This document shows, piece after piece, positions 5,595 to 42,567 of a stretch of DNA of 45,567 nucleotides. The stretch comes from a virus: positions 1-45,567 of IMG/VR virus record IMGVR_UViG_3300012685_000008, one strand, 5' to 3'. Under the pieces are notes generated by a model, which saw only the letters and a list, made by a program, of their open reading frames with translations, did no database searches and had not been told where the DNA came from. Position numbers and translations under genes: made by a program. Position 1 is the stretch's first letter; each line of letters opens with the position of its first letter.

Positions 5595-6593
5595 ATGGAC
5601 GATATTGTTCGTAAGTCAGTAACGGCTGAGATTACCTCAGTCGATAAGGACACGGGCTCGTTCTCGGCAGTCCTTAGTACTCCCGATAAGGACCGTGAGG
5701 GGGAAGTTCTAAACCAGAACGAATGGAAGAGCTTCCCGCCTCGCATCCCCATCAACACCGATCACGATATGAGTGTGTCTGGTACCGTTGCGAGTGCAGT
5801 CCCTACACTACAACCTGATGGCAAGGTCACCATTGAAGGTACCTTCGCTAGCACACAAAAGGGTCAGGATGTTCGGACCCTCGTGAACGAAGGACACATC
5901 ACCACGATGTCCGTCGAGTTCATGCGCTCTCGTATCCCAAGCACTGAAAAGGGCGGGGCTCCCACGGTGTCCCGTGAGTTGGTTGGCGGGGCTTTTACCC
6001 CATACCCGATCAACCCTAACGCACGGATCCTAACCTCTAAGGCGGGCGCGCGTAACAACAAGTCCGATGCCTCAAACATCCAATCCATCCATGATGCGAG
6101 TGCATCACTTGGCGCTGATTGCGCGGGTGCTGGTGAGAAGGCCATGAAGGCTTTTGACCAAGCAGTGCGTAAGGCGCTCAGTGGCAGCGTTGAGGATCTC
6201 AAGAATCGCCTCTCGGATGAGCTCTGTGAGTTCTACGGTGGCGGGCCAGATCTATATGTATGGATCTGTGCCACATTCCTTGACTCCATGGCCGCTGGCA
6301 CAGTCGTGTATGAGTACAACGGTGATACCTATTCCCAGACTTTCACCGACGATGGCACCACTGCAACTGTGGATGGTGCTCCACAAGACGTCTCCCTAAT
6401 CACATCAGTGGTTCTGGAGGATAAAGAAGACCCTAATACGGTTGTAAGCTCAAGTGACTCCGCTAAGTCGGTCGCCGCATCCCAAGAAGATGTCGCCACC
6501 AAATCAGCCGATGAGCAAGCGCTAGACCTTCAATGTCTTCTATTTGACACGCAAGCAATGCTTGCAAATATGCAACTAGAAATTGGAGAGTAA
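5595..6593 (+). CDS. prohead protease, HK97 U35-like, with long C-terminal extension
   Basis: Maturation protease that processes capsid and scaffold. The serine-protease core (about residues 1-150) shows the catalytic His in DHDMS (near 57), the Ser in TTMSVEF (near 105) and the typical GGAFTPYPINPNARI region. It has a good ribosome site (aaggagacct). The remaining 180 residues are unlike the protease: an acidic, Ser-rich tail with GGPDLYVWICATFLDS and an amphipathic end (ALDLQCLLFDTQAMLANMQL). These may form a scaffold, since no separate scaffold gene is present; this is an inference. The capsid gene starts directly after its stop. Confidence 0.85.
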   Translation: MDDIVRKSVTAEITSVDKDTGSFSAVLSTPDKDREGEVLNQNEWKSFPPRIPINTDHDMSVSGTVASAVPTLQPDGKVTIEGTFASTQKGQDVRTLVNEGHITTMSVEFMRSRIPSTEKGGAPTVSRELVGGAFTPYPINPNARILTSKAGARNNKSDASNIQSIHDASASLGADCAGAGEKAMKAFDQAVRKALSGSVEDLKNRLSDELCEFYGGGPDLYVWICATFLDSMAAGTVVYEYNGDTYSQTFTDDGTTATVDGAPQDVSLITSVVLEDKEDPNTVVSSSDSAKSVAASQEDVATKSADEQALDLQCLLFDTQAMLANMQLEIGE

Positions 6594-11127: not shown

Positions 11128-11459
11128 GCGATCCGTTTGAATATTTCACAGGTGAGATGAGCGACGCAACCATGCGGGGTCGCCTCATGTGGTTGCTCGC
11201 TCGCCCTGAAAGTCAAACGTTCCGCGTGTCCACGGGCACCGATATGGACCCGGTGTGGACGATGGACACTTACCTCCTTGCTGAAATCGCCGACCGCTTG
11301 GGCATCAACATCACTGCTGTGCTCAACGCCGCTGGCGCTAATGCTACACCTCCTAACCCCGTACCGCGTCCCCACATGAACGTGGGTATGGACCTTGAGC
11401 CAGCCGCCACCATCGACGATATCAAGAGCTTCTTTGGAGCGCTGGAGAGTAGTAGCTAA
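11049..11459 (+). CDS. tail assembly chaperone (GT-like) extension in the -1 frame
   Basis: This reading frame continues the chaperone after a -1 slip at 11046-11052, giving a fusion of about 235 aa (10753-11049 joined to 11049-11459). The open frame begins upstream of any start codon, and EYWRAIEADFAHYFALSDPF is typical of GT proteins. An internal ATG at 11157 (MSDATMRGRLMWLL) exists, but separate use is unlikely. The last A of its TAA stop at 11459 is also the first base of the tape-measure ATG (TAATG). Confidence 0.85.
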   Translation, partial: GRLQQYLFVQEYWRAIEADFAHYFALSDPFEYFTGEMSDATMRGRLMWLLARPESQTFRVSTGTDMDPVWTMDTYLLAEIADRLGINITAVLNAAGANATPPNPVPRPHMNVGMDLEPAATIDDIKSFFGALESSS

Positions 11460-14176
11460 TGAGTTTCTCAGCCGGTACCGCGTGGATTGATCTCACCCTC
11501 GGAAGCACCGCCGCCGTGAAGGGCAGCATGATGGCTGAGGGTGAGATGGCCGCATCCGGATTCGCGGGCAAGTTCACCTCTGGATTGTTCGGCACGTTGA
11601 AGGGTCTCGCCGGTCCTCTGATTGGCATCATGGCCCTTGACAAGCTGTTCGAATTCGTCAAGGGTGGCGCGCAGGATTGGGCCGCCCTTCAAGCGTCCAT
11701 CCGGCAGACGAATGCTGTGCTTACCTCAACCGGTGGTGCGGCTAACGTCAGCGCTGACGCTATCACTGCTCTGACCGGGACGTTGTCCAAGAAGACCGCC
11801 ACCGATCAAGCCGTGATCCGCTCTGGTGAGAACATGCTGTTGACGTTCACCAACGTCAAGAATGGTGTGGGCGCGGGCAATGATATCTTCAACCAAGCTA
11901 CCGCTACGATGTTGGACATGTCTAAGGCCCTTGGACAGGACACCAAGAACAGCGCCATCCAATTGGGCAAGGCCCTTAATGATCCGGTCAAGGGTGTCAC
12001 CGCGCTTCAGCGTGTGGGTGTCACCTTCACGGCTCAACAGAAGGACCAGATCAAGACCATGGTGGCCAGCAACAACACGCTGGGTGCCCAGAAGCTTATC
12101 CTCGCTGAGCTCAACAAGGAGTTCGGTGGATCCGCCGCCGCCGCTGCAACTGGTGGTGCTAAGCTTTCGCTAACCATGCGGGACTTGGCCATGAACCTCT
12201 TCGGCCTGATCGCCCCAATCAAGACCATCGGTATTACATTCTCAACGTGGCTGATTACCCCCATTGCGGATGGTGTGGCGAAGCTGCTCCCCATCCAACA
12301 GAAATGGGTGGCGGATTGGAAGTCCACATTCAAGCAGGCGAAGGAAGCGGCCCAGAACCCGCTGGCCGATTTCCCCAAGGTTGGTAACACCCTTGAGGAG
12401 GTGGCCCGCACCGTAGGTGTTGTGGTGGGCAATATCCACCAGCAGTTGGTTGCCCTGCGTGAAGCATGGACCCTAGTCCTTGGTGGGTTCCTGGGTACCG
12501 GCGCAATCAGTTATACATCCCATGAACTCAACGCTTTCGCAGAGCGCCTGTACAATGTGGGTGCTGCGGCCCGTAACATGTGGAATCTCGTTAAGCCAGT
12601 CTTTGAAGAGTGGGGGCCCGCCATTGGCAAGGCCTTGCTAGCGGGCTTGTCGCTTATGGTGCTGGTTACGGTGTTCCAAGCAGTCGGCAAGGCCGCGTTG
12701 CTTATGAGTGGCAACGTCCTAAAGGCCATGGCTTCCATGGTGGAGTTGTTCACTAAGAACCCTATCCTCCTGATCGTCGCGGCCATCGCTGGCGCGCTCG
12801 TGCTGCTATGGCAGATGAGCCCCAAGTTCCGTGAGTTCGCGTCGAAACTATTCGATGCCTTTATGCCGGTCGCTGAGCAATTGATGCCCATGCTATCGCA
12901 AGCGTTCAAGATTGCTATGGATGTCATCAGCACAGTGCTCTCCATCATCATCCCATTGGTTGAGCCCCTGCTTTCACTTCTGGAATTGGGCGTCCACGTA
13001 ATTTCGGACTTCGTCAAGGGTGGAGGTATCGCCTCCTCCGGTGGTGGGTTCGTCGACTGGCTCATCAACGCATTCAACGTGGTCAAGGGAATCTTTGACG
13101 GTGCGGTCAGCTGGATCTCCGGTGCCGCGCAAGGTATTGGTGATTGGTTGAACTACATGTTCAGCCCCCTAGCTCCCTTGCTTCCCAAGATCAAAACCGT
13201 ACTAGATCAAATCGAATATGGTTTCGATAAAATTTGGCACTTCGTTCTGCAACCGTTCTTTGAGTGGTTGGGCCCAATTGTTGGTGCTACATTCTCGGCC
13301 ATCTGGCAAGTTCTACAGCCCATCCTAACGACCATTGGCGCGCTGTTCGGCGTCGTGTTCGGCTTCATCTGGGACGTGGTTAGTGCCGTATTTGGTTTGA
13401 TCACGGTCATTGTCCGTAGTGCCATGGAGATTATCTCCGGTATTATTGGCTTGTTCCTTGATATCATTACAGGTAACTGGAATGGTGTTTGGGATGACCT
13501 AGCCATGATTGCTAAGGGCTTTGTTGATCTTTTCTTTGGGATCATTCAGTTTGGTCTCAATTTGGTTAAGGCCATTTTCACCGCTGTGCTCGGTGTCATT
13601 ATCGCTGTGGTGCAGGGTGCGTGGAACTTTATCGTGGGCAACTTCACCGCTGCCCTTACCCTCATCAACAGTGTCGTTGGCGGTGGACTTGATAAGGTCA
13701 TCAGTTGGTTTAAGGGCCTTGGCTCTAGTGTCTCTAACGCCATTGGCGACCTCGGCCAATTGCTGCTACACGCGGGTGAGGCTATCATCAACGGTCTGCT
13801 AGATGGATTAAAGAATGCATGGAAGGCAGTCACCGACTTCGTTGGTGGTATCGCTTCCTGGATCGCGGATCACAAGGGCCCAATCAGCTACGATAAAACG
13901 TTGTTGACCCCCCATGGTACCGCAATCATGCAAAGTCTGCTCGCTGGTTTGCAATCTCAAGAGAGCACCATCCTAGGATGGTTGTCCTCCTTCACGGATA
14001 ACATCGCTGTGTCTGGTCTCAATCTTGGGGCTCCAAAACTCAGTGGTGCGGCTGGCTCCCTCAGTGGTGCTGGCGCTGCTTCAAGTGGCGTGTACAACGT
14101 GTATGGCAACGATGACCCTCTGTCTACGGCCATGGCCATCGATCGGATCCAGACAAACAACGCACGCGTTTCGTAA
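11459..14176 (+). CDS. tape measure protein
   Basis: 905 aa, the longest structural protein; it sets tail length and is ejected with DNA. The N-terminal part (residues 1-250) is Ala/Gly/Thr-rich with a coiled region (TGTLSKKTATDQAVIRSGEN, ATATMLDMSKALGQ) typical of actinophage tape measures. The middle and end contain many hydrophobic, possibly membrane-spanning segments (GLSLMVLVTVFQAV, ILLIVAAIAGALVLLW, LGVIIAVVQGAWNFIVG). The C-terminus holds the conserved HKGPISYDKTLLTPHG motif. By the usual 0.15 nm per residue, the tail would be around 135 nm. It starts in TAATG with the chaperone stop. Confidence 0.93.
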   Translation: MSFSAGTAWIDLTLGSTAAVKGSMMAEGEMAASGFAGKFTSGLFGTLKGLAGPLIGIMALDKLFEFVKGGAQDWAALQASIRQTNAVLTSTGGAANVSADAITALTGTLSKKTATDQAVIRSGENMLLTFTNVKNGVGAGNDIFNQATATMLDMSKALGQDTKNSAIQLGKALNDPVKGVTALQRVGVTFTAQQKDQIKTMVASNNTLGAQKLILAELNKEFGGSAAAAATGGAKLSLTMRDLAMNLFGLIAPIKTIGITFSTWLITPIADGVAKLLPIQQKWVADWKSTFKQAKEAAQNPLADFPKVGNTLEEVARTVGVVVGNIHQQLVALREAWTLVLGGFLGTGAISYTSHELNAFAERLYNVGAAARNMWNLVKPVFEEWGPAIGKALLAGLSLMVLVTVFQAVGKAALLMSGNVLKAMASMVELFTKNPILLIVAAIAGALVLLWQMSPKFREFASKLFDAFMPVAEQLMPMLSQAFKIAMDVISTVLSIIIPLVEPLLSLLELGVHVISDFVKGGGIASSGGGFVDWLINAFNVVKGIFDGAVSWISGAAQGIGDWLNYMFSPLAPLLPKIKTVLDQIEYGFDKIWHFVLQPFFEWLGPIVGATFSAIWQVLQPILTTIGALFGVVFGFIWDVVSAVFGLITVIVRSAMEIISGIIGLFLDIITGNWNGVWDDLAMIAKGFVDLFFGIIQFGLNLVKAIFTAVLGVIIAVVQGAWNFIVGNFTAALTLINSVVGGGLDKVISWFKGLGSSVSNAIGDLGQLLLHAGEAIINGLLDGLKNAWKAVTDFVGGIASWIADHKGPISYDKTLLTPHGTAIMQSLLAGLQSQESTILGWLSSFTDNIAVSGLNLGAPKLSGAAGSLSGAGAASSGVYNVYGNDDPLSTAMAIDRIQTNNARVS

Positions 14177-14188
14177 CAAAGGAGCCCC

Positions 14189-15106
14189 ATGACGACTACT
14201 GCTATTTCACTTCCGGTGCAATGGTCCCTACCGTCATGGGGCTTGTCTTTTAACACCAACGTCAAAGACGCTAACGGCGCAGCGTACTTCTGCACCGATG
14301 AAAAGGGCTGGTCTGGTGGGCCTCCGGTCAGGCCTTCCACTCAAGGAAAGCCCTATTCCCAGGGCGCGTTCAACGGCCCCAACTTTGCGGGTGCCCGCAT
14401 TATCACCCTGTTTGGTACGGTGTCTGCACCTACCACCATCGCTCGTAGGGCGGCAGAGCACACGGTGGCCGCTGCCCTCATGGATCCATTCAATCTCTAT
14501 GATCTTCACTGTACAGAGGAGACTGGCGAGCTAATCGCCTACGTGCGGTTGGACCAGCCCACCACCGTAGTGCAGATGCCCGGTGGCTTGGACTTCCAAT
14601 GGTCCATGCAGCTGGCTGCGCCTGATCCCCGTAAGTACTCCGCAACAAATCAAAGCGCCAGCACTGGGTTGCCAATGACCACGGGCGGGTTGGATTGGGC
14701 CACGGGTGGTGGCCTTGATTGGGCCACGGGTGGTGGTCTCAACTGGGGAACGGTTGTCAGCACAGGTTCTGTCGTCATGGCGAACGCAGGTACCGCTGAT
14801 ACATGGCCCAAGTTCACTATCGCGGCCAATGGTACTGCTCTGGTCACACCAGGCATCACTATCACTTTCAATGGCTCAACCCTCTTCTACAATGACACCC
14901 TTGCCGGTGGGGACGTACTGGTGATTGACACCAACCCCTCATCCCGCTCTGTGATCTTGAATGGCGTGAGCGATCGCAGGGGCTCGTTGACTACTGCTCA
15001 ATGGGCTTCCATTCCTGCGAAGACCACTGTCACAGCCGCGTTCAGTGCCGCTGTTTACTCCGCTACTGCAACACTCAGCGCCCAATGGGCCAATGCATAC
15101 TGGTAA
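14189..15106 (+). CDS. minor tail protein, distal-tail (Dit)-like
   Basis: 305 aa directly after the tape measure, the standard location of the distal tail protein that starts the baseplate. The N-terminal part (ISLPVQWSLPSWGLSFN to FQWSMQLAAPDPRKYS) follows the Dit pattern, including the APDPRKYS junction common to siphovirus Dit proteins. Then a short repeat GGLDWATG occurs twice, with a third degenerate copy, leading to a C-terminal beta-sandwich (TWPKFTIAANGTALVTPGI). The ribosome site is aaaggagcccc. Confidence 0.75.
   Translation: MTTTAISLPVQWSLPSWGLSFNTNVKDANGAAYFCTDEKGWSGGPPVRPSTQGKPYSQGAFNGPNFAGARIITLFGTVSAPTTIARRAAEHTVAAALMDPFNLYDLHCTEETGELIAYVRLDQPTTVVQMPGGLDFQWSMQLAAPDPRKYSATNQSASTGLPMTTGGLDWATGGGLDWATGGGLNWGTVVSTGSVVMANAGTADTWPKFTIAANGTALVTPGITITFNGSTLFYNDTLAGGDVLVIDTNPSSRSVILNGVSDRRGSLTTAQWASIPAKTTVTAAFSAAVYSATATLSAQWANAYW
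14693..14736 (+). repeat. 24-bp tandem repeat inside the Dit-like gene
   Basis: GATTGGGCCACGGGTGGTGG occurs at 14693 and again 24 bp later at 14717, with a third partial unit after it. It encodes the GGLDWATG repeat linking the two domains. Confidence 0.9.
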
Positions 15107-23662: not shown

Positions 23663-23849
23663 GAGACTCGCGAGATACCAGACGGTATTCATTGCGCTCA
23701 TCGTGCCATAGCCGGTACTCCGCCAGCTCTGCCTGCGCCCTACTAAGGTTGCTGGTGATGAAATCAACTCGGCAATCGAACTCAGGGTTCTTCAGCTGGT
23801 ACCACTCGGAGTTGTACCTTCGGCGAACTTGGATTCCATACTCAAGCAT
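23637..23849 (-). CDS. hypothetical protein, 70 aa
   Basis: Not recognised. It starts MLEYGIQVRRRYNSEWYQLK with overlap to the upstream stop (ATGCTTGA). It is basic and aromatic with DFITSNLSRAQAELAEYRLW forming a helix and ending RLVSRESHGWVVVSG. Short proteins with this YRxW pattern occur in actinophage early operons, where they are uncharacterised. Confidence 0.6.
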   Translation of the reverse strand: MLEYGIQVRRRYNSEWYQLKNPEFDCRVDFITSNLSRAQAELAEYRLWHDERNEYRLVSRESHGWVVVSG

Positions 23850-24027
23850 CCGGCCCACTCTCCCAGACCAGAACTGAGATGGGGTCCTCAGTAAACCCCT
23901 CAACCCACTCAACATAAGGCGAAGCCTCCCGGAACTCAGTGAGGTAGACGTAGCGCCCATCCTCAAGTTTAGCAATGAGATCGCCGGTACCATCGTTCTC
24001 CCTATAGATCTTGATCTGTGGCAGCAT
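23842..24027 (-). CDS. hypothetical protein, 61 aa
   Basis: Not recognised. The start at 24027 follows agaggtcc and overlaps the preceding gene by 26 nt. The sequence DGTGDLIAKLEDGRYVYLTE suggests a small beta barrel, followed by an acidic, Trp-containing end. Part of a chain of overlapping minus-strand genes. Confidence 0.55.
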   Translation of the reverse strand: MLPQIKIYRENDGTGDLIAKLEDGRYVYLTEFREASPYVEWVEGFTEDPISVLVWESGPDA

Positions 24028-24286
24028 GGACCTCTGGCCCCCTTCCGGTGTACCATTCCCTGGCACCGTCGATTTCGTGGATGGAGCAGTTGAACAAGAG
24101 CTCCCGCTCAGCTCTGAAGGCTTTCAGCTCGTGCCGCGCAATGACTGCGCCAGCCCAATCCTCAGCATCAATGGCAAGGTTCAGGGTCTCCTCATATACT
24201 TCGACAAGACCATCAAGGACTTCAATGGCAGTGCGCCGGGGACCAGGGTAAACATCGGAGGTTCGTAGTTCAGTCATCGTCACCAT
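24002..24286 (-). CDS. hypothetical protein, 94 aa, helical
   Basis: Not recognised. The start at 24286 has gggag nine nt upstream; ATG 24277 and GTG 24292 are alternatives. Mostly helical (AIEVLDGLVEVYEETLNLAI, AVIARHELKAFRAERELLF). No membrane segment. It overlaps the 238-aa gene by 17 nt. Confidence 0.55.
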   Translation of the reverse strand: MVTMTELRTSDVYPGPRRTAIEVLDGLVEVYEETLNLAIDAEDWAGAVIARHELKAFRAERELLFNCSIHEIDGAREWYTGRGPEVHAATDQDL

Positions 24287-24986
24287 GTGCACTCACTCCC
24301 AGGAACTCGGGGAACTCGTCCTTCAACCACTGACGCGCTCCGATTAGTAGCAATGTGATGGTGACATTACGGTACGCGTCGTACGTTGTCAAATCAACTT
24401 CCAGCTCCTGCCACCTGTTGACTGCCAAACCCGCTAGGATCATAGCCTCACCGAACTCCCCATCTAGGAAGGCTCCGATTGTGGCCTTGAGCTTGTCGCT
24501 CAGATCCATGTCGATGGTGAATGCCTCACGCTCCGCATCCCATGCCCCCAGGATCTCCATCTCCTCGGAGGAGGTGTCAGGGTCCACATTGGATGCAATC
24601 CAGCGGCCAGTCTCGAACAGCACCCCACGCGCGGAGTCGTTGTCATCCTCGGTGAAGAGCTCCATGGCCCCAATGACCGCGTTCTCAATGCTGCATGCGG
24701 CCAGGGTGGGCTCCAGAAGCACGTGAGGCCAGTGGGCAATGACGGCGGAGTCAAGGGTCTTATAGACGAACCCCGTGGGCGGACCAGGCAGATAAGGGTT
24801 ATCGCCGGACATCTGCTCCGCATAAAGATCGTAGGAGTCTTCCTCCTCCTCCGGAGCATCATCGATCCAATCTTCATCCCCGTAATCCAGTGCCGGTGGC
24901 GCAGATTTATCTGCGTACACCACGATCACCGGTGGCTCATACTCCCCAGCTAGCGCGAGTAGTAGACCCTTCCAAAAACCTCCCAT
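24270..24986 (-). CDS. hypothetical acidic protein, 238 aa
   Basis: Not recognised. The start at 24986 follows aaaggggttcgac. It begins MGGFWKGLLLALAGEYEPPV, possibly a short membrane-associated helix. Residues 35-60 are very acidic (GDEDWIDDAPEEEEDSYD) and the remainder is a helical domain (ATIGAFLDGEFGEAMILAGL, NVTITLLLIGARQWLKDEF). DNA-mimic behaviour is conceivable from the charge but not supported otherwise. Confidence 0.65.
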   Translation of the reverse strand: MGGFWKGLLLALAGEYEPPVIVVYADKSAPPALDYGDEDWIDDAPEEEEDSYDLYAEQMSGDNPYLPGPPTGFVYKTLDSAVIAHWPHVLLEPTLAACSIENAVIGAMELFTEDDNDSARGVLFETGRWIASNVDPDTSSEEMEILGAWDAEREAFTIDMDLSDKLKATIGAFLDGEFGEAMILAGLAVNRWQELEVDLTTYDAYRNVTITLLLIGARQWLKDEFPEFLGVSAHGDDD

Positions 24987-32254: not shown

Positions 32255-32502
32255 GCAAGTTTGAGGTTGGTACACGGGTCCGGGCGATTGGTTCCACGGA
32301 TGGGCCGGCCTTCAGTTTCCCTGAGGGTTCCCTCGGTACGGTGAGGGAGGTTCTCGACCATAGCACCTTTGCCTACATCATCTCATCTGCATTCCTGGGT
32401 TACTACCCGGATGTGGACATTGAATGGGATGAGCCCTCTCCATCAGGAGCCACCTTCTCCGCCCGCGCCTTCACCGATGTTGAGATCGTGGAGAATGCCT
32501 AA
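32251..32502 (+). CDS. small SH3/KOW-like barrel protein 4, 83 aa
   Basis: GTG start overlaps the preceding TGA (GTGA) with ggaggagct upstream. MSKFEVGTRVRAIGSTDG, GSLGTVREV, DVDIEWDEPSP and FTDVEIVENA follow the same barrel plan. The stop overlaps the polymerase start by eight nt. Unknown function; close linkage to primase and polymerase suggests a replication-associated role. Confidence 0.6.
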   Translation: MSKFEVGTRVRAIGSTDGPAFSFPEGSLGTVREVLDHSTFAYIISSAFLGYYPDVDIEWDEPSPSGATFSARAFTDVEIVENA

Positions 32503-34285
32503 CCTCCACATCGTGCCGGCTTCCCTGACCGGTGTTGAGGCGGATGCTCTGGTTCAAGCGATCCTTGAGTCAGAGCGCCGTTTCGGCGTTCTCGCATACG
32601 ATGTGGAGTCCACCGGCCGTCGGCTCTTCTTGGAGGGTGCAGCCCTTAGGACGGTCCAGTTTGGGGTACCCGATGAGGCGTGGTACTTCATCGCTGAGAA
32701 CCCCATCCACGCGCATGTGATCATTGAAGTGTTGAAGCGTGCGCTTCATTTAACGGCCCACAACGCCTCTTTCGACATCCAATGGCTCGTTGTCACCTAC
32801 GGCGTCAACCATGACGCCCTATGGGAGAAGACCACGGACACATTCCTCCTGTCCCACATCTTCAACACAGATCGCGACCACCACGATCTTAAGACCTTGT
32901 CAGCGTCATGGAACACTAACCCAGTCTCCGCCGATGCACTTGAGGACCTAAAAGCGCTAGCGCGCCGGATCAAGTGTACCATCAAGCCCACTCTTGAGAC
33001 TCCCATTGAGAACAACGCCTGGGCCCAGTTCGACCTTAACGACCCCATCTTCCAACGCTACGCATGTGCAGACGTCCTAGACGGAAGCCAGCTTTGCCTG
33101 AGCTTGCTCCCATACCTCCGTGGTGAGGAGGAGGTAGTCCGCCGTGAACACAGGATCGCTAAACTCATGTCACGGACCACGTTGCTTGGCACCCTCATTG
33201 ACCAGGCCCATTCCGAGGCCCTGAGAGCGTCTCTGAGCCCCCAGATTGAGGAGGTCGCTAGGACCCTACACGGGATGGGTCTCAGCTCGCCTACGAACAA
33301 CACAGAGCTTGGAGCGTTGCTCACTGAACGCGGCAGCGTTTTGCCACGTAACACCAGGAGCTACACGGTGGATGTGAACGTGCTTGAATCGCTTAGCGAT
33401 CCTATGGCTGCGTTGGTGCTGGAGTACAGGAGTCTCACCAAGAACCTCAACACGTATGTCATGAACACTCTCACATTGAGTAGTGGGGATGGCCGAGTGC
33501 ACCCCTCCATCAAGACCCTTGGGGCTCGCACGGGGCGAATGAGCGCCAGTGACCCCAACGTACAGAACGTGCCCAAATCAGGGCAATATCGCGGTATGTA
33601 CATCCCTGATCACGGAGAGTCATTCGTCTCTTGTGACTTCGCCAGCGTTGAGCCTCGGTGCATTGCGGCGCTCAGTGATGATGTCAATCTAATTGAGGAG
33701 TACAGGAAGCCCAAGGGCGACCCTTACAAGGTGCTCGCTGCCGAGGTCTACGACGATGAATGGGCTAACGCCCTTGCAGCTGGCGATAATGCAGCGTGGA
33801 AGATCATGCGCAACTCCATGAAGCCCGTGCTCCTTGGTCGTGCTTATAAGGGCTCCAAGGCCACCCTATCCGAGCAAACCGGTTTGCCCATGGACATGGT
33901 GGAGTTGGCCATTGAGACCTTCGATGGCTTGTACCCGGATGTGGCAGCTAGCTCAGCTGAGTGGACCCGTCGCATCGAACAAGGTAACGCAGAGGTGGTT
34001 ACACCCACTGGCCGCCGGGTACCCGTGTCGATCCCCTACACGGCCGGTAACCGCACCATCCAAGCATGGGCCCGTGACGTGCTAGTAGACTCCTGCTTCA
34101 TCATTGATGACGCAGGGCTGTGGCCGATCGTTCGGTTCCCCGTGCACGACGAACTGATCCTTTCAGTCCCGATTGAACAAGTTGACGACTACCAGGTATG
34201 GATCCAAGAGGCCATGTCTGGTATGGTGTTGGATGTTCCAATTTTGGGTGAATCAGAAGTCCTAGGAGAGAGGTGGCACAAGTGA
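32495..34285 (+). CDS. polA: DNA polymerase I, family A
   Basis: 596 aa. The 3'-5' exonuclease has LAYDVESTGRRLF (DxE), LTAHNASFDIQWL (N-x3-D) and a third motif in YACADVLDGS. The polymerase has motif A FVSCDFASVEPR, motif B RNSMKPVLLGRAYKGSKATL (Arg, Lys and Tyr at normal spacing) and motif C PVHDEL. There is no 5'-nuclease domain, as in other phage family A enzymes of this size. The ATG at 32495 overlaps the preceding gene; upstream in-frame starts would lie inside that gene. Confidence 0.93.
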   Translation: MPNLHIVPASLTGVEADALVQAILESERRFGVLAYDVESTGRRLFLEGAALRTVQFGVPDEAWYFIAENPIHAHVIIEVLKRALHLTAHNASFDIQWLVVTYGVNHDALWEKTTDTFLLSHIFNTDRDHHDLKTLSASWNTNPVSADALEDLKALARRIKCTIKPTLETPIENNAWAQFDLNDPIFQRYACADVLDGSQLCLSLLPYLRGEEEVVRREHRIAKLMSRTTLLGTLIDQAHSEALRASLSPQIEEVARTLHGMGLSSPTNNTELGALLTERGSVLPRNTRSYTVDVNVLESLSDPMAALVLEYRSLTKNLNTYVMNTLTLSSGDGRVHPSIKTLGARTGRMSASDPNVQNVPKSGQYRGMYIPDHGESFVSCDFASVEPRCIAALSDDVNLIEEYRKPKGDPYKVLAAEVYDDEWANALAAGDNAAWKIMRNSMKPVLLGRAYKGSKATLSEQTGLPMDMVELAIETFDGLYPDVAASSAEWTRRIEQGNAEVVTPTGRRVPVSIPYTAGNRTIQAWARDVLVDSCFIIDDAGLWPIVRFPVHDELILSVPIEQVDDYQVWIQEAMSGMVLDVPILGESEVLGERWHK

Positions 34286-35052: not shown

Positions 35053-35148
35053 GCTCCCGCTCTGGCAGAGCTAACACGGTTCGATTCCGTGGTAACCCTT
35101 GGACGGGCACCAGGCATGGTGATACCGGTTCGATTCCGGTAGGGAGCA
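35053..35148 (+). pseudogene. aberrant tRNA-like element with two T-arms
   Basis: The 5' GCTCCC and 3' GGGAGC form an acceptor-like stem with a discriminator A. A D-arm-like GCTC-TGGCA-GAGC follows directly. Two separate T-arm signatures are present: CACGG-TTCGATT-CCGTG (35075-35091) and ACCGG-TTCGATT-CCGGT (35124-35140). No normal anticodon arm is seen between them. It could be the fusion of two decayed tRNA genes. If the first T-arm-like loop were used as the anticodon arm, the anticodon would be CGA (Ser) with a long variable region, but it lacks a purine at 37 and the 8-9 linker. Confidence 0.5.
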
Positions 35149-35198: not shown

Positions 35199-35600
35199 AT
35201 GTCTGATGTTCGTGTGCTGACCCGTGAAGACGTCATCTCCCTCGTGCGTATCGATGAGGACACGCTGCTGCATGAGGATGGGGCGGTCACCTACACGTGG
35301 CACCTTACCTTCCCCAGCTGGACGGACTCCACTGACTCCACTGAGCCGTTGCCCTTCATCATCCGTGAGTGCTTCAACAGTCCGGACTCGGTGGAGGATG
35401 TGGTCGAGGCCTACGCGGCCGACGACGAGTTCTTCCTGCTGTCCCTCATCCCGTTTGTGCGGGTGCCACGTGAGAATGAGGGTTCGGTTGAGGCCGCTGT
35501 TGCGGAGCTGATCGACACATACAACAGCAACCAGGGTGACCCCCAGCATAAGGCTCTGCTGTCGCTCCTGCGCATCATGAATGCGGAGCCTCAGGACTGA
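35199..35600 (+). CDS. hypothetical acidic protein, 133 aa
   Basis: Not recognised. aaggaggcacctca precedes the ATG. It is acidic, with DVISLVRIDEDTLLHEDGAV, then TYTWHLTFPSW, and helical parts (VEDVVEAYAADDEFFLLSLI, SVEAAVAELIDTYNS). Overlaps the start of the RNA ligase by one nt, so likely co-translated with it. Confidence 0.6.
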   Translation: MSDVRVLTREDVISLVRIDEDTLLHEDGAVTYTWHLTFPSWTDSTDSTEPLPFIIRECFNSPDSVEDVVEAYAADDEFFLLSLIPFVRVPRENEGSVEAAVAELIDTYNSNQGDPQHKALLSLLRIMNAEPQD

Positions 35601-36196
35601 TGGACTTCATCAAGTACCCGAAGACCGCGCGTTGGGGTTCCCCGTTCGACATCACGGAGAAGTTGGATGGTACGAATGCAGCGGTGTTGATTCGTCCGGT
35701 GGACCTCAGCACGGATGAGTACATGTTCCCCGTCAACGAATGGTTGATTTGGTCAAAGGGCAAGATGTATGCGGTAGCGGCCCAATCCCGTACCCGCATT
35801 ATCACCCCGGAAGACGATAACTACGGCTTCGCCCAGTGGGTTGAGGACAACATTGACACATTGGTTGCGGACCTTGGTCCGGGTACCCACTATGGCGAGT
35901 GGTGGGGTGCGAAGATCCAGCGTGCTTATGGCTTGACCAACGGGCAAAGGTACTTCTCCCTCTTCGATGTCAATCGTTATGACAACATCCGAGTTGAGGG
36001 TGCACTGACTGATGGGCTTGATATCGTGCCCATCGTTATTGAAGGCGAGGTCTTCGACTCCAAGGCCCTTCTTGAGGCTGAGTCTGTCCTTCGGACGTAT
36101 GGGTCGCTAGCGGCCATTAGATTCGACCGGCCTGAGGGGTTCGTGGTACACTGGCACCACAACGGAATGCGACTGAAGTACATCCTGGACAAATGA
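35600..36196 (+). CDS. RNA ligase, Rnl2-like short form
   Basis: 198 aa nucleotidyltransferase that seals RNA nicks. Motif I is EKLDGTN, with the adenylated Lys at residue 21; motif III is RYFSLFDVN; motif IV is PEGFVVHW; motif V is RLKYILDK. SRTRIITPEDDNYGFAQWVE lies between, as in this ligase group. It lacks the C-terminal domain of T4 Rnl2 (334 aa), so it is a minimal catalytic core. It is one of two ligases in the block, with a T4-type kinase/phosphatase and tRNA genes nearby, pointing to tRNA repair. Confidence 0.85.
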   Translation: MDFIKYPKTARWGSPFDITEKLDGTNAAVLIRPVDLSTDEYMFPVNEWLIWSKGKMYAVAAQSRTRIITPEDDNYGFAQWVEDNIDTLVADLGPGTHYGEWWGAKIQRAYGLTNGQRYFSLFDVNRYDNIRVEGALTDGLDIVPIVIEGEVFDSKALLEAESVLRTYGSLAAIRFDRPEGFVVHWHHNGMRLKYILDK

Positions 36197-36211
36197 ACGG
36201 AGAGTGATCTC

Positions 36212-36412
36212 ATGGCTTCTTACCGTAAGGTTCCGCCGCTGCCACTACCACCGGCGGACCAGTATGAGTTGCTGGGTCTGTCCAGTACGGATGTGTGGGT
36301 CTTGTACTACTCTCTCCTAGAGTACAAGGCACGTAACCTGGGTGCGCGGACTGAGCAGCAATCCGTTCATGGTCTTCTGGATCTTCTGGACCGATTGACC
36401 AACGAGCTCTGA
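36212..36412 (+). CDS. hypothetical protein, 66 aa
   Basis: Not recognised. ggagagtgatctc precedes the ATG. MASYRKVPPLPLPPADQYEL, a Pro-rich start, then a helical part (SSTDVWVLYYSLLEYKARNL, VHGLLDLLDRLTNEL). It lies between the first ligase and the tRNA-Leu gene. Confidence 0.6.
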   Translation: MASYRKVPPLPLPPADQYELLGLSSTDVWVLYYSLLEYKARNLGARTEQQSVHGLLDLLDRLTNEL

Positions 36413-36437
36413 CAAATGGGGGCAAAGCCCACTTCAC

Positions 36438-36453
36438 GGTGGGACAAACCCCC
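36438..36453 (+). repeat. 16-bp direct repeat, copy 1, 4 nt before tRNA-Leu
   Basis: GGTGGGACAAACCCCC here and GGTGAGACAAACCCCC at 41409-41424 differ at one base. Both immediately precede structured RNA regions (tRNA-Leu and the tRNA island), so the repeat may be a processing or recombination signal. A small hairpin CCCAC/GTGGG overlaps this copy. Confidence 0.6.
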
Positions 36454-36457
36454 CTAA

Positions 36458-36531
36458 GGCTCTCTAGCCCAATTGGCAGAGGCGCTGGTCTTAGGAACCA
36501 GAGGTTCGGGGTTCGAACCCCCGGAGAGCCA
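36458..36531 (+). tRNA. tRNA-Leu(UAG), short variable arm
   Basis: Acceptor GGCTCTC/GAGAGCC with discriminator A, anticodon stem CTGGT/ACCAG, loop CTTAGGA (anticodon TAG at 36492-36494, reads CUA), and T-arm CGGGG-TTCGAAC-CCCCG. No CCA is encoded. The variable region is only five nt (AGGTT), whereas bacterial tRNA-Leu normally has a long variable arm, so charging identity is uncertain. It is separate from the main tRNA island and its 3' end overlaps the ribosome site of the next gene. Confidence 0.9.
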
Positions 36532-36532
36532 C

Positions 36533-36721
36533 ATGACTGATTACAGGGAAACAATGCGCTTAGCGCTAGAGATGAAAAGGGGCCTTGAGAAGCAATGGAA
36601 CGCCAAAGCCGCTAAGGTCGGTAAGTCTCACAGGCGGGCGCGAGGTAAAGGAACACGGCGCAGGGCCAATCTGGCCATCGAGTATGACCCCAAGGAGGAG
36701 GATAGCCATGAAGATCTCTAA
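36533..36721 (+). CDS. small basic protein immediately after tRNA-Leu, 62 aa
   Basis: MTDYRETMRLALEMKRGLEK then a very basic stretch (KSHRRARGKGTRRRANLAI) and an acidic tail. Nucleic-acid binding is likely from charge. The only ribosome site is ggagag at 36523-36528, inside the tRNA acceptor stem, so cleavage of the tRNA 3' end would remove it from the mRNA. Overlaps the next gene by 14 nt. Confidence 0.55.
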   Translation: MTDYRETMRLALEMKRGLEKQWNAKAAKVGKSHRRARGKGTRRRANLAIEYDPKEEDSHEDL

Positions 36722-37019
36722 CAAGAGTACTACAGTTAGTGTTGTGCCTTCCCATTTCGAAGAGGGAACTGTGGCCCTTGACATTTGGCCAGCCGATGGT
36801 GTCTCGGGGGTGTATGTGCGTCTGACGCCCAAGGAGGCCCGGAAGCTGGCCAAGAGGCTGAAGCGCGTGGCGGCGAAGATTGACCCAACGATCCTGGTTG
36901 ATGGCGACGGTGACACCTGGTACCTGAATGAGGGGGAGTGGACCTTGAGCGCCAAGGGCATTGGTTGGGCCTCCAAGGATTACATTCGAGAGAACTACGG
37001 GATCAAGGGAGAGGACTGA
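36708..37019 (+). CDS. hypothetical protein, GDTW-motif paralogue 1, 103 aa
   Basis: The start at 36708 follows aggaggatagcc. N-terminal MKISNKSTTVSVVPSHFEEG, a helix LTPKEARKLAKRLKRVAAKI, then the shared C-terminal motif DGDGDTWYLNEGEWTLSAKG and DYIRENYGIKG. The same C-terminal motif is found in the next gene, so the two are probably a duplicated pair. Function unknown. Confidence 0.6.
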   Translation: MKISNKSTTVSVVPSHFEEGTVALDIWPADGVSGVYVRLTPKEARKLAKRLKRVAAKIDPTILVDGDGDTWYLNEGEWTLSAKGIGWASKDYIRENYGIKGED

Positions 37020-37021
37020 TC

Positions 37022-37315
37022 ATGGAGGTTACGCGCAACGAAGCTGTGTCTTACACCATCCATTTCACTTCCGCTTTCGTCGAGGATCTGACCCTTGTTG
37101 ATGATGACGCCAGGGAATTGTACCGACTACTAGGGGAACAGTTTGCAGGGATACCTGTTTCCCGGATCATTGACGCCGGTGGGGATACGTGGGAGCTTCA
37201 GCCCAACGGTAAGTATACGCTCAGATGGGGGGCCGGCGATCAGTCCACACGGTGGCGTGATTACACCATTGAGGCCATCCGTGAGGGATTTGGACTTAAA
37301 GGTGATTTCCGGTGA
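37022..37315 (+). CDS. hypothetical protein, GDTW-motif paralogue 2, 97 aa
   Basis: The start at 37022 follows gggagaggactgatc. It has an N-terminal strand and helix (DARELYRLLGEQFAG) and the C-terminal IDAGGDTWELQPNGKYTLRW then AIREGFGLKG, aligning with the end of the preceding protein. Its stop overlaps the second RNA ligase (GTGA), linking it to the RNA-repair genes. Confidence 0.6.
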   Translation: MEVTRNEAVSYTIHFTSAFVEDLTLVDDDARELYRLLGEQFAGIPVSRIIDAGGDTWELQPNGKYTLRWGAGDQSTRWRDYTIEAIREGFGLKGDFR

Positions 37316-38418
37316 CCCATCTAGCTGACATCATGGACATGGACGATCTCGCCCGCTCCCTTGGCGAGGGCTGGATCAGGGTGCAGAAGCACCCCCAGCA
37401 TCCCCTGTTCATCTACAACTACACCGAGCGCGCCGTGTTCACCCAATCATGGAACACAGCCACCCTTGCGTGCCGGGGTCTCATCACCAACCAACACGAC
37501 GTTGTAATCGCGCGCCCCTTCCCCAAGTTCTTCAACCACGGTGAAGCGGCGGACCCATATAAGCATGAGGCCGCCCGGGGTTACTTGCCCATGATCATCA
37601 CGGACAAGCTTGACGGCTCCCTCGGGATCCTCTACTACACTCCCGATGGCCAGCGCGCCGTTGCAACGCGGGGAAGTTTCACTTCGGACCAGGCGCTATG
37701 GGCCACTGAGAAGCTTAATACCTTTGATTGGAACTGGGCGGCTGGGTACACGCCCCTGGTGGAGATCATCTACCCGGAGAACCGCATCGTGCTTGACTAT
37801 GGCAACCGTGAGGCGCTTGTGCTCATTGGGGCGGTGGAGCGGTGCAGTGGGAAGACGTGTACACCCTTGCAGGCACAAATTATTCTCAATTGGCCGGGGG
37901 AGGTTGCTGAGCGCTTGGATGCTATCCAATTGGATAGGGAGAACCGTGAGGGTGTGGTGGTCCATTACCTCAAGTCTGACACCCGGGTCAAGTTCAAGCA
38001 GGAGGATTACATTCAGCTGCATAAGCTCGTGACCAATCTGAATGCCCGCACGGTGTATGACGCCTTGGGAAAGGGCCAGATGAAGCAGTCTCTTGAGGCC
38101 TTCTGTGCTCCCTTCCCTGATGAGGTTCACGAGTGGATCCTTGATGTGGCCCTTGAGCTGTGGTGGATGGTTGAGGATCATGTGAGTGTGGCCTACAACC
38201 TATATGATGAGGTGGTGGGCACACTCAACGAGTCCAAGCCAGGTTGGGACCGTGGTGACTTCGCACGGCTGGTACAGAGTGAGTATCCTCGTGTGAGTGG
38301 GCCCTTGTTCTTCCTGTTGGATGAGCGGTATGACCGCCTCGACCAGTGGGCATGGGATGCATCTAAGCCAGCGGCTGACGCCTTTGGTAAGCCACGGGCA
38401 GGAGGTATCAAGCGATGA
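37312..38418 (+). CDS. RNA ligase, T4 Rnl1-like
   Basis: 368 aa, close to T4 Rnl1 (374 aa). Motif I is KLDGSLG with the nucleophile at Lys99, the same number as in T4 Rnl1. Upstream, ACRGLITN supplies the conserved Arg. Motif III is PLVEIIYPENRIVLDY, motif IV REGVVVHY, and motif V RVKFKQEDYIQLH with the two Lys. A C-terminal helical region of about 120 residues matches the Rnl1 specificity domain, which in T4 recognises tRNA broken in the anticodon loop. The GTG start overlaps the previous TGA and the stop overlaps the kinase start (ATGA), so ligase and kinase are one translational unit. Confidence 0.93.
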   Translation: MTHLADIMDMDDLARSLGEGWIRVQKHPQHPLFIYNYTERAVFTQSWNTATLACRGLITNQHDVVIARPFPKFFNHGEAADPYKHEAARGYLPMIITDKLDGSLGILYYTPDGQRAVATRGSFTSDQALWATEKLNTFDWNWAAGYTPLVEIIYPENRIVLDYGNREALVLIGAVERCSGKTCTPLQAQIILNWPGEVAERLDAIQLDRENREGVVVHYLKSDTRVKFKQEDYIQLHKLVTNLNARTVYDALGKGQMKQSLEAFCAPFPDEVHEWILDVALELWWMVEDHVSVAYNLYDEVVGTLNESKPGWDRGDFARLVQSEYPRVSGPLFFLLDERYDRLDQWAWDASKPAADAFGKPRAGGIKR

Positions 38419-39302
38419 CGCTCTTAACGATCATGCGGGGGCTCCCTGCCTCTGGTAAAACCACGTACAGTAGCAACCTGGATGCAGTGCGTGTCTCTCG
38501 GGATGACATTCGTCAGACCGTGCAGCCAGGTATCTTCATTCTAGATGAGGTACAAGAGCGTGTGGTCACCAAGGTTGAAGAGCAAACGGTTCGCCTGTGG
38601 CTCAAAGCTGGACGTGACGTCGTGGTGGATGACATGAACCTCCGTTCCAAGTACGTCAAGCGCTGGATCAGTATCGCGTACCAGTGTGGTGCTGAGTACG
38701 ATGTGGTGGACCTCACCAACCAACCCCTCAACGACTGCCTAGAGCGCAATGAAACCCGGGGCTTTAAGGTCCCTGCTGAGCTCATCACAGGCCTTCATGA
38801 GCGTTACATCAAGGGTCAGCCTTACCCCCTGCCCTATACTGAGGCGTTGGGCTCCCAGCGTGAGCCTTACGTGCGGCCTGAGGATGGGGTCCGGGCCTTC
38901 TTGATCGACATTGATGGGACCCTAGCCAACCACGAGGGCATCCGTAACCCGTACGATACGACCCGTTACTCTCTGGATACAGTCCATGAGCACGTCCGTA
39001 CGCTCATTTACGCCCTTGTTGGTAGGGGCTATTACCCCATCTTCTGTTCGGGCCGCAGCGACGAGTTCAGGGCCGTTACGGCGTCATGGATTCACCGGGC
39101 GACTAACCTGTATGACTTCGGGCTGGTCATGCGACCCAAAGATGATCACAGGGAAGACAGTGAGGTCAAGTACGACCTGTTCGATGAGCACATTCGTTTG
39201 GTCTACGATGTGCTCCTGGTCCTAGATGATCGTGATCGGGTGGTTGACATGTGGAGGGACATTGGGCTACCTTGTCTACAGGTTGCACCTGGTGACTTCT
39301 GA
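38415..39302 (+). CDS. pnkp: polynucleotide 5'-kinase / 3'-phosphatase, T4 Pnkp-like
   Basis: 295 aa (T4 is 301). The kinase P-loop is GLPASGKTT (residues 9-17, Lys15), followed by SRDDIRQ with the Asp and Arg used in catalysis. The HAD-type phosphatase has DIDGTLA with the two Asp at 165 and 167, the same positions as in T4, then FCSGRSDE (Ser/Arg) and VLDDRD. It removes 3' phosphate and phosphorylates the 5' OH at breaks made by tRNA nucleases, preparing ends for the Rnl1-like ligase next to it. ATGA overlap with that ligase. Confidence 0.95.
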   Translation: MTLLTIMRGLPASGKTTYSSNLDAVRVSRDDIRQTVQPGIFILDEVQERVVTKVEEQTVRLWLKAGRDVVVDDMNLRSKYVKRWISIAYQCGAEYDVVDLTNQPLNDCLERNETRGFKVPAELITGLHERYIKGQPYPLPYTEALGSQREPYVRPEDGVRAFLIDIDGTLANHEGIRNPYDTTRYSLDTVHEHVRTLIYALVGRGYYPIFCSGRSDEFRAVTASWIHRATNLYDFGLVMRPKDDHREDSEVKYDLFDEHIRLVYDVLLVLDDRDRVVDMWRDIGLPCLQVAPGDF

Positions 39303-41424: not shown

Positions 41425-41494
41425 AACTAAGTGAGCCTTATAAGTGTAAGGACTTTTAGTTGTGGCGCTCTCTGCCAGCCCTAGTTAGGCTCAC
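41424..41494 (+). ncRNA. structured non-coding element at the head of the tRNA island
   Basis: Two competing folds are visible: a long hairpin pairing CAACTAAGT with ACTTTTAGTTG (41424-41462, inner CCTT/AAGG), and a tRNA-sized outer stem GTGAGCC/GGCTCAC (41431-41437 with 41488-41494). No T-arm consensus, so not a tRNA as it stands. It could be a decayed tRNA, a leader/attenuator or a small RNA. The following 41495-41623 shows no gene. Confidence 0.4.
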
Positions 41495-41623
41495 CACTCA
41501 ATGGAGCAACAGGCAAAGTGAAGACCCTGACAGACCGAGAAGCACACGCCAATATGTGTAGCGAGTAGGGACCTGTTAGAGACGTCGGTGAGGACCCTCC
41601 TTCACTCGCGCGGGCGTCCAAAT

Positions 41624-41695
41624 GTGAATGTAGGGTAGTGGTAACCCACTTGCTTTGGGAGCAAGACGTCGCAGGTTCGAATCCTGTCATTCGCA
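41624..41695 (+). tRNA. tRNA-Pro(UGG)
   Basis: Acceptor GTGAATG/CATTCGC with one G-T pair, discriminator A, D-arm GGG/CCC, anticodon stem CTTGC/GCAAG, loop TTTGGGA (anticodon TGG), T-arm GCAGG-TTCGAAT-CCTGT. No encoded CCA. Bases 41696-41858 downstream have no recognisable gene. Confidence 0.92.
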
Positions 41696-41858
41696 CGGCC
41701 GGGAATCACTAAGACTGGTATCTCTCAGTGAGCAAGGACGCTTGAGGGTTGCAGAGATGTTGAACAGTGCAACTACCCCGGATCAAACAACCTCGCCTCC
41801 AACGCGCGGTTCATAGCTGGACTGGGCCCGCCAGCATATAAATCCAGGGTCCTGCCAT

Positions 41859-41928
41859 GTATGGGTGCTGATGGTCAGCAGTTGGTCTCCAAAACCAACC
41901 CTTCTGGGTTCGATTCCTAGCTCATGCG
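41859..41928 (+). tRNA. tRNA-Trp(CCA), shortened D-loop
   Basis: Acceptor GTATGGG/CTCATGC with two wobble pairs, discriminator G as is usual for tRNA-Trp, anticodon stem TTGGT/ACCAA, loop CTCCAAA (anticodon CCA), T-arm CTGGG-TTCGATT-CCTAG. The D-arm is very short (CTG-ATGGT-CAG), which is unusual but may still fold. No encoded CCA. Confidence 0.85.
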
Positions 41929-41949
41929 CAAGGTGTGGGTCATCCGTGA

Positions 41950-42025
41950 GGTATCAGCTATAGCAAGCCCATTGATGCTGATACCAAGGACAACGTGTAG
42001 AGCGATGAATGGGTCATCACTACAC
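41950..42025 (+). other. two hairpins in the tRNA spacer
   Basis: GGTATCAGC/GCTGATACC (41950-41958 with 41977-41985, 9 bp) and GTGTAG/CTACAC with inner GATGA/TCATC (41995-42025). They lie between tRNA-Trp and the next tRNA-like gene. No T-run follows either, so they may be processing elements or remnants of lost tRNA genes. Confidence 0.5.
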
Positions 42026-42061
42026 CGGATCACACTCAGTCGCACTGATCATGCGGCACCC

Positions 42062-42133
42062 GCCTGATAGCTTAATCGGTAAAGCGCTCCCACACAATAT
42101 GGGGAGGATGAGGGTTCGAATCCCTCAAGGGCA
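42062..42133 (+). pseudogene. degenerate tRNA, identity unclear
   Basis: A perfect T-arm (GAGGG-TTCGAAT-CCCTC) and a tRNA-like D-arm (TAGCTTAATCGGTAAAGC) are present. The acceptor pairs poorly: with C at 42061 as position 1, the pairs 1-72, 6-67 and 7-66 are mismatched. The anticodon stem TCCCA/TGGGG leaves the loop CACAATA, which has A instead of the universal U at position 33 and would give CAA. It may be inactive or need repair/editing. It lies four nt before tRNA-Met. Confidence 0.6.
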
Positions 42134-42137
42134 CTAT

Positions 42138-42211
42138 AGCGGAGTGGCGCAGTTCGGAAGCGCGACGGTTTCATAAGCCGTAGGTCCTGGGTTCAAATCC
42201 CAGCTCCGCTA
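42138..42211 (+). tRNA. tRNA-Met(CAU) or tRNA-Ile(CAU)
   Basis: Acceptor AGCGGAG/CTCCGCT fully paired, D-arm GCGC/GCGC, anticodon stem ACGGT/GCCGT, loop TTCATAA (anticodon CAT), T-arm CTGGG-TTCAAAT-CCCAG, discriminator A. The paired 1-72 position excludes a normal initiator. Elongator Met and lysidine-modified Ile cannot be told apart by anticodon. The spacer 42212-42279 holds an imperfect hairpin GGTCA/TGACC but no clear gene. Confidence 0.92.
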
Positions 42212-42279
42212 CAAATGAGGGGTCATTAGCTGTAGTGGGCTGACCTTAAACGACCTCCGGGTACAGGTGCCTCATGTAA

Positions 42280-42350
42280 TTCCCCTTCGTTCAATGGCAG
42301 GACTCCTGACTTTGGATCAGGTAATCGTGGTTCGAGTCCATGAGGGGAAG
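42280..42350 (+). tRNA. tRNA-Gln(UUG)
   Basis: Acceptor TTCCCCT/AGGGGAA, discriminator G, D-stem GTTC/GGAC, anticodon stem CCTGA/TCAGG, loop CTTTGGA (anticodon TTG), T-arm CGTGG-TTCGAGT-CCATG. The U1-A72 start matches bacterial tRNA-Gln identity. No encoded CCA. Confidence 0.93.
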
Positions 42351-42402
42351 CAAGCGCGGGACGGCTTAGCCGTGGAATACATAACTTGGCAACCGCGCGC
42401 AA

Positions 42403-42475
42403 TGGTTACTAGCTCAACTGGCAGAGCAGCGCCCTGTTAAGGCGCGGGTTATAGGTTCGAGTCCTATGTAGCCAG
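42403..42475 (+). tRNA. tRNA-Asn(GUU)
   Basis: Acceptor TGGTTAC/GTAGCCA, discriminator G, D-arm GCTC/GAGC, anticodon stem GCGCC/GGCGC, loop CTGTTAA (anticodon GTT), T-arm ATAGG-TTCGAGT-CCTAT. Last tRNA of the island. Confidence 0.95.
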
Positions 42476-42567
42476 CGCTTGTTTAGTTGGCCGTATACTC
42501 CATGCATAATGAAGTCCACCTTGAGTGGGATAAGGTAGGAATGGTCCCAATTCGTTAAGGAGCTCAA

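Follow-up and report, generated by a model that had tools for sequence, protein, structure and literature searches.

A T4-type RNA end-healing and sealing gene pair beside a core-only Rnl2-like ligase in a probable actinobacteriophage

Phages of very different sizes carry enzymes that act on broken RNA. In bacteriophage T4, repair of tRNA-Lys is carried out by the polynucleotide 5′-kinase/3′-phosphatase (Pnkp) and RNA ligase 1 (Rnl1) (PMC12409363). Jumbo phages combine Rnl1, Rnl2, RtcB and kinases with tRNAs, and these have been described as answers to translation-directed immunity (PMC7824862). The ligase and kinase of mycobacteriophage LeBron have likewise been discussed as countering an RNA-cleaving defence (PMC13148394). 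Microbacterium phages of cluster ED, for example Hortus1, encode an RNA ligase, a polynucleotide kinase and two to four tRNAs, and a defence against RNA cleavage has been proposed for them (PMC7302621). The subject here is a contig of 45,567 bases, IMG/VR record IMGVR_UViG_3300012685_000008, whose whole length is termed the window. It encodes an Rnl2-like core RNA ligase, an Rnl1-type ligase and a Pnkp (Table 1). The locus is a divergent further example of a known gene combination rather than a new system. With its Rnl1 and Pnkp, a T4-type pair of enzymes for the healing and sealing of RNA ends, this actinophage quite probably mends tRNAs cut by a host defence.

Along its entire length the window Pnkp is similar to its T4 counterpart (E 8.7e-26). 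Its HAD_PNKP (E 3.3e-43) and AAA_33 (E 2.8e-16) domains lie in one chain, with a P-loop GLPASGKT (K15) and a phosphatase motif DIDGT (D165, D167), and all three residues are invariant among five aligned Pnkp proteins. The Rnl1-type protein scores 54.7 bits against Pfam RNA_lig_T4_1 (cut-off 28.3) and matches phrog_562 over residues 6-351 (E 3.9e-55). Residues K99, E151, E213, K227 and K229 are invariant in 11 aligned phage Rnl1 proteins. The profile of this alignment finds T4 Rnl1 structures with an E of 8e-29, profile positions 32-322 of 357 falling on chain residues 33-331, a match that extends beyond the catalytic core. An AlphaFold2 model (predicted local distance difference test score, pLDDT, 87.6) is helical past residue 231. 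Its top three PDB fold matches are T4 Rnl1 over the full length (E 1.7e-15 to 1.6e-13), with TM-scores of only 0.46-0.51, and the next is the fungal tRNA ligase Trl1 (TM about 0.5). The helical C-terminal domain of T4 Rnl1 is linked to tRNA specificity, and the model, with TM-scores near 0.5, suggests that the window protein likely has an equivalent domain. The two genes overlap by the sequence ATGA at 38415-38418. The locus shares both enzyme families, with catalytic residues intact, with the pair by which T4 answers PrrC. It differs from T4 in that the two genes are adjacent and overlapping, and its Pnkp is divergent although the match is full-length.

The third enzyme is also recognized by family models: it scores 40.4 bits against Pfam RNA_ligase PF09414 (cut-off 27; E 4.6e-10) and matches phrog_548, 'RNA ligase' (E 7.5e-25). 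Motif I reads K21-L-D-G, and motifs I, III, IIIa, IV and V are conserved across seven aligned core Rnl2 proteins, with the catalytic residues intact. In this chain of 198 amino acids five residues follow the lysine of motif V (K193), and its relatives stop within about 25 residues, the short length being the natural form in all seven. At about 200 amino acids the protein has no counterpart of the C-terminal domain found in full-length T4 Rnl2, and it is therefore named an Rnl2-like core only. T4 RNA ligase 2 truncated (1-249) is a comparable protein that likewise consists of the nucleotidyltransferase domain only, but there the truncation is engineered. Searched against the PDB at E<=1, a profile of the seven core members reached no structure of an Rnl2, and a structure model of the window protein (pLDDT 57) was too poor and was discarded. 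The C-terminal domain of T4 Rnl2 is involved in transfer of adenosine monophosphate to 5′-PO4 ends (PMC3149579), and because this domain is missing, the core enzyme may, by analogy, favour other ends or require a partner. A different pairing of RNA ligases was observed in the 48 kb Microbacterium phage Caron (L018), where a core Rnl2 (5688-6353) occurs together with an RNA ligase of the RtcB type (23668-24894).

A preliminary description made from the sequence alone had placed the Rnl2-like core, the Rnl1 with Lys99 and the Pnkp with Lys15, Asp165 and Asp167 where Pfam, phrog and residue checks also find them, and had correctly given the ATGA overlap. It went on to call the three a complete T4 set for tRNA repair. 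The coupled Rnl1-Pnkp pair with intact residues agrees with this; a single three-enzyme set was rejected on co-occurrence counts, since the core Rnl2 assorts independently and is without the C-terminal domain. The counts come from 80 Rnl1 loci and 80 core-Rnl2 loci of IMG/VR, up to 21 kb each, and are lower bounds, as contig ends cut some loci. Of the 80 Rnl1 loci, 60 have a Pnkp gene no more than 10 kb away from Rnl1; the distance is at most 600 nt in 42, 39 of which have the order Rnl1 to Pnkp on the same strand. Core Rnl2 is present in 3 of the same 80. Conversely, the core-Rnl2 loci include Rnl1 in three cases and Pnkp in nine. The pairwise distances among the Rnl1 proteins correlate with those among the Pnkp proteins, with a Mantel r of 0.82 for 58 loci and 0.55 for 45 dereplicated loci (0 of 2000 permutations each). 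When 19 records were examined whole, Rnl1 was present in 15; Pnkp accompanies it in 13 of these, mostly adjacent, and core Rnl2 in only two, Arthrobacter phage Seahorse and the IMG/VR genome G006. Among Arthrobacter phages, the pair occurs in Bauer and core Rnl2 in Auxilium, each without the other, and Seahorse has both. Because of these counts and the correlated distances, Rnl1-Pnkp is regarded as a co-inherited, coupled T4-type end-healing and sealing unit and core Rnl2 as a separate module, the three enzymes of the window being two modules that met by chance. This coupling and this independence, like the genes and their catalytic residues, are direct observations.

Seahorse (MH910041) is among the closest described parallels. 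Its gp74, gp81 and gp82 correspond to the core Rnl2 (48% in the alignment), Rnl1 (46%) and Pnkp (43%), and, as in the window, its Rnl1 and Pnkp genes overlap by 4 nt. It differs in that core Rnl2 is 2.8 kb upstream with other genes intervening, no DGDxW paralogues (see below) are present, and the sole tRNA of the 56-kb genome lies near the genome end, outside the block. In G006 (L011, 60157-63411) Rnl1, Pnkp and core Rnl2 are close together, with Pnkp beside core Rnl2, and there are 15 tRNAs. The cluster ED phages share ligase, kinase and tRNAs with the window; the likeness is one of description, and the passages concerned do not mention a core Rnl2 (PMC7302621). Jumbo phages have far larger genomes than the window's roughly 45 kb. 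The novelty implied at the outset is consequently not sustained: Seahorse has all three genes and a tRNA, and the idea of an answer to RNA cleavage is in print for the ligase and kinase of cluster ED (PMC7302621).

By analogy with T4, from which both the order of reactions and tRNA as the substrate are taken, a host ribonuclease would cut a tRNA during infection, most likely in the anticodon loop, and leave 2′,3′-cyclic phosphate and 5′-OH ends. Pnkp would take off the 3′ phosphate and phosphorylate the 5′ end, and Rnl1 would then seal the break, whereby translation of phage proteins could continue. Since the core-only Rnl2 forms a module apart from Rnl1-Pnkp, the two probably act on different targets. 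The independent core enzyme, with its putative RNA activity, probably seals other breaks in RNA, whether nicks or ends of another kind. The tRNAs of the phage would enlarge the pool by codon supply, by replacement of cut tRNAs, or by both.

That all three enzymes work as a single T4-like repair system might be suggested by their position inside 3.7 kb in the window and by their presence together in Seahorse and in G006, where Pnkp adjoins core Rnl2. The rarity of core Rnl2 at Rnl1 loci, and of Rnl1 and Pnkp at core-Rnl2 loci, together with the gene contents of Bauer and Auxilium, makes this unlikely, and in T4 itself Pnkp and Rnl1 are the enzymes that repair tRNA-Lys (PMC12409363). Several other points weigh against the repair of defence-cleaved tRNA by Rnl1 and Pnkp. 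Both T4 enzymes act on other nucleic acids too in vitro. T4 Rnl1 has a second description, as gp63, the protein that attaches tail fibres, and phrog_562 bears this name as well, its annotation being 'RNA ligase and tail fiber protein attachment catalyst'. The block furthermore comes after replication genes, such as that for DNA polymerase. A role of the enzymes in phage DNA or mRNA metabolism or in tail assembly is nevertheless quite improbable: the tight coupling of Rnl1 to a bifunctional 3′-phosphatase/5′-kinase suits end healing, and Rnl1 is distant from the tape measure and minor tail protein genes.

The remaining points against tRNA repair concern the tRNA genes. The window has six by ARAGORN, one of which lies within the ligase block; degenerate tRNAs number at least two. 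This bears out the several tRNA genes, some broken, that had been reported. tRNA genes occur within 10 kb in 37/60 Rnl1+Pnkp loci vs 15/71 core-Rnl2 loci without Pnkp (p 3e-6). The difference is also seen on contigs of 20-65 kb (17/31 vs 12/47, p 0.016), but size-matched contigs of 35-60 kb shrink it to 9/22 vs 7/33 (p 0.14). In addition, 5 of 10 related phages without Pnkp (relatives by replication or terminase genes) have tRNAs, one of them 16. About one-third of Microbacterium phages carry tRNAs (PMC7302621). The G + C content of the window is moderate, at 55.9%, and the codons read by the phage tRNAs are heavily used by the phage's own counts, CUA making up 16% of Leu, CAA 45% of Gln and CCA 23% of Pro codons. 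These data fit tRNAs that serve codon supply, are unrelated to the ligases and reside beside them because both are common in actinophages. The somewhat greater frequency of tRNAs near Rnl1+Pnkp, and the tRNA gene that sits within the ligase block, speak for a connection, and the chances of the codon-supply explanation appear evenly balanced. Repair enzymes and tRNAs are indeed both present, as the preliminary description emphasized; their combination is common, and the link is weak after size matching. The two are compatible with a joint defence.

Table 1. Coordinates of features in the window
Feature	Position	Strand	Basis
Tape measure and minor tail protein	11459-15106		
DNA polymerase	32441-34285		
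tRNA-like relic	35053-35147	+	Reading and folding of sequence
Rnl2-like core RNA ligase, nucleotidyltransferase domain only, Lys21 nucleophile, 198 aa	35600-36196	+	Pfam, phrog
Small ORF, 66 aa	36212-36412	+	No Pfam/phrog family match
tRNA-Leu(UAG), inside ligase block	36458-36532	+	ARAGORN; Rfam 60.2 bits
Small basic ORF, starts right at tRNA-Leu 3′ end	36533-36721	+	No Pfam/phrog family match
Small paralogue 1, DGDGDTW motif	36708-37019	+	BLASTP to paralogue 2
Small paralogue 2, DAGGDTW motif, overlapping Rnl1 start	37022-37315	+	BLASTP to paralogue 1
T4 Rnl1-type RNA ligase, Lys99, 368 aa	37312-38418	+	Pfam, phrog, alignment, profile, fold
T4-type polynucleotide 5′-kinase/3′-phosphatase (Pnkp), 295 aa	38415-39302	+	Pfam, phrog, T4 Pnkp match
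tRNA-Pro(UGG)	41624-41696	+	ARAGORN, Rfam
tRNA-Trp(CCA)	41859-41929	+	ARAGORN; weak Rfam tRNA-Sec match 33.5 bits
Degenerate tRNA	42060-42134	+	Rfam tRNA 32 bits, model positions 8-63 only
tRNA-Met(CAU)	42138-42212	+	ARAGORN, Rfam
tRNA-Gln(UUG)	42280-42351	+	ARAGORN, Rfam
tRNA-Asn(GUU)	42403-42476	+	ARAGORN, Rfam

Small open reading frames (ORFs) lie between the core Rnl2 and Rnl1 genes. Processing of tRNA-Leu should cut the mRNA leader of the small basic ORF, as this begins at the tRNA 3′ end. The two paralogues that follow had been pointed out as a pair inside the block and as potential repair partners. The pair is real (38% over 72 columns, E 1e-7, by BLASTP of the pair alone), and the partner role stands as a weak hint. 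By a family model the DxDGDxW proteins are rare: apart from the window, the clear members are confined to Microbacterium phage phiMiGM15 and contig IMGVR_UViG_3300042923_000650, and in all three the distance to a core-Rnl2 gene is about 2 kb or less. Phage phiMiGM15 (L017, 7249-8599) has two such genes, both downstream of core Rnl2. The contig (L041, 9478-11040) has three, two directly upstream and one just downstream of core Rnl2. The family was not found in 10 control phages or in other repair-gene phages, barring a marginal match in Curtobacterium phage Yappy (E 0.016). Searches for further relatives added one contig by single-protein and profile scans and one phage by tblastn of phages; the link to phiMiGM15 was found from the paralogue itself at E 0.4, which is weak alone. 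The family is carried by just 1 of the 80 core-Rnl2 loci, and the bare motif, which matches at least 599 IMG/VR stretches, may be near chance. A partnership between the paralogues and core Rnl2 is possible from gene position. That the DxDGDxW proteins replace the missing C-terminal domain in trans, as parts of a split multi-subunit RNA ligase, would be very surprising.

Two tRNA remnants were characterized. In the degenerate tRNA upstream of tRNA-Met, Rfam sees the D- and T-arms, the acceptor stem is unusable and the anticodon loop is non-canonical. The relic that precedes the ligase block has a 6-bp acceptor stem, a D-arm-like hairpin and two T-arms (TTCGATT twice), with a fold z of -2.7, and falls below every Rfam tRNA and ARAGORN threshold. 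Because of its two T-arms it reads like two tRNA genes fused through deletion. A hidden intron-bearing tRNA was considered for it, and none was found by ARAGORN with introns allowed. Long stems close three non-coding stretches that precede or separate tRNA genes, at 41428-41496 (z -1.2), 41930-42048 (-2.2) and 42354-42401 (-2.3). They are possibly stable RNAs, for which the stable RNAs C and D among the T4 tRNAs offer a comparison, or processing or terminator elements.

The window also encodes terminase, portal, protease, capsid, tape measure, endolysin, primase and DNA polymerase. Its tail genes support the siphovirus label first given to the phage; the 45 kb given with that label is a minimum size, as the source record is a contig. 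The nearest protein relatives are from Arthrobacter, Gordonia, Microbacterium and Streptomyces phages, every one at less than 60% identity, and the phage is probably an actinobacteriophage with hosts among soil actinobacteria. A DNA-level search for the nearest phage gave no match, and scans of bacterial genomes for prophage relatives, with Pnkp and with terminase, gave no related locus.

T4-type RNA repair is thus seen again in actinophages of small size, and cultivated Arthrobacter, Microbacterium and Streptomyces hosts make it accessible to experiment beyond coliphage T4. Identification of the actinobacterial defence that is answered would carry the story of T4 and PrrC into a new phylum.

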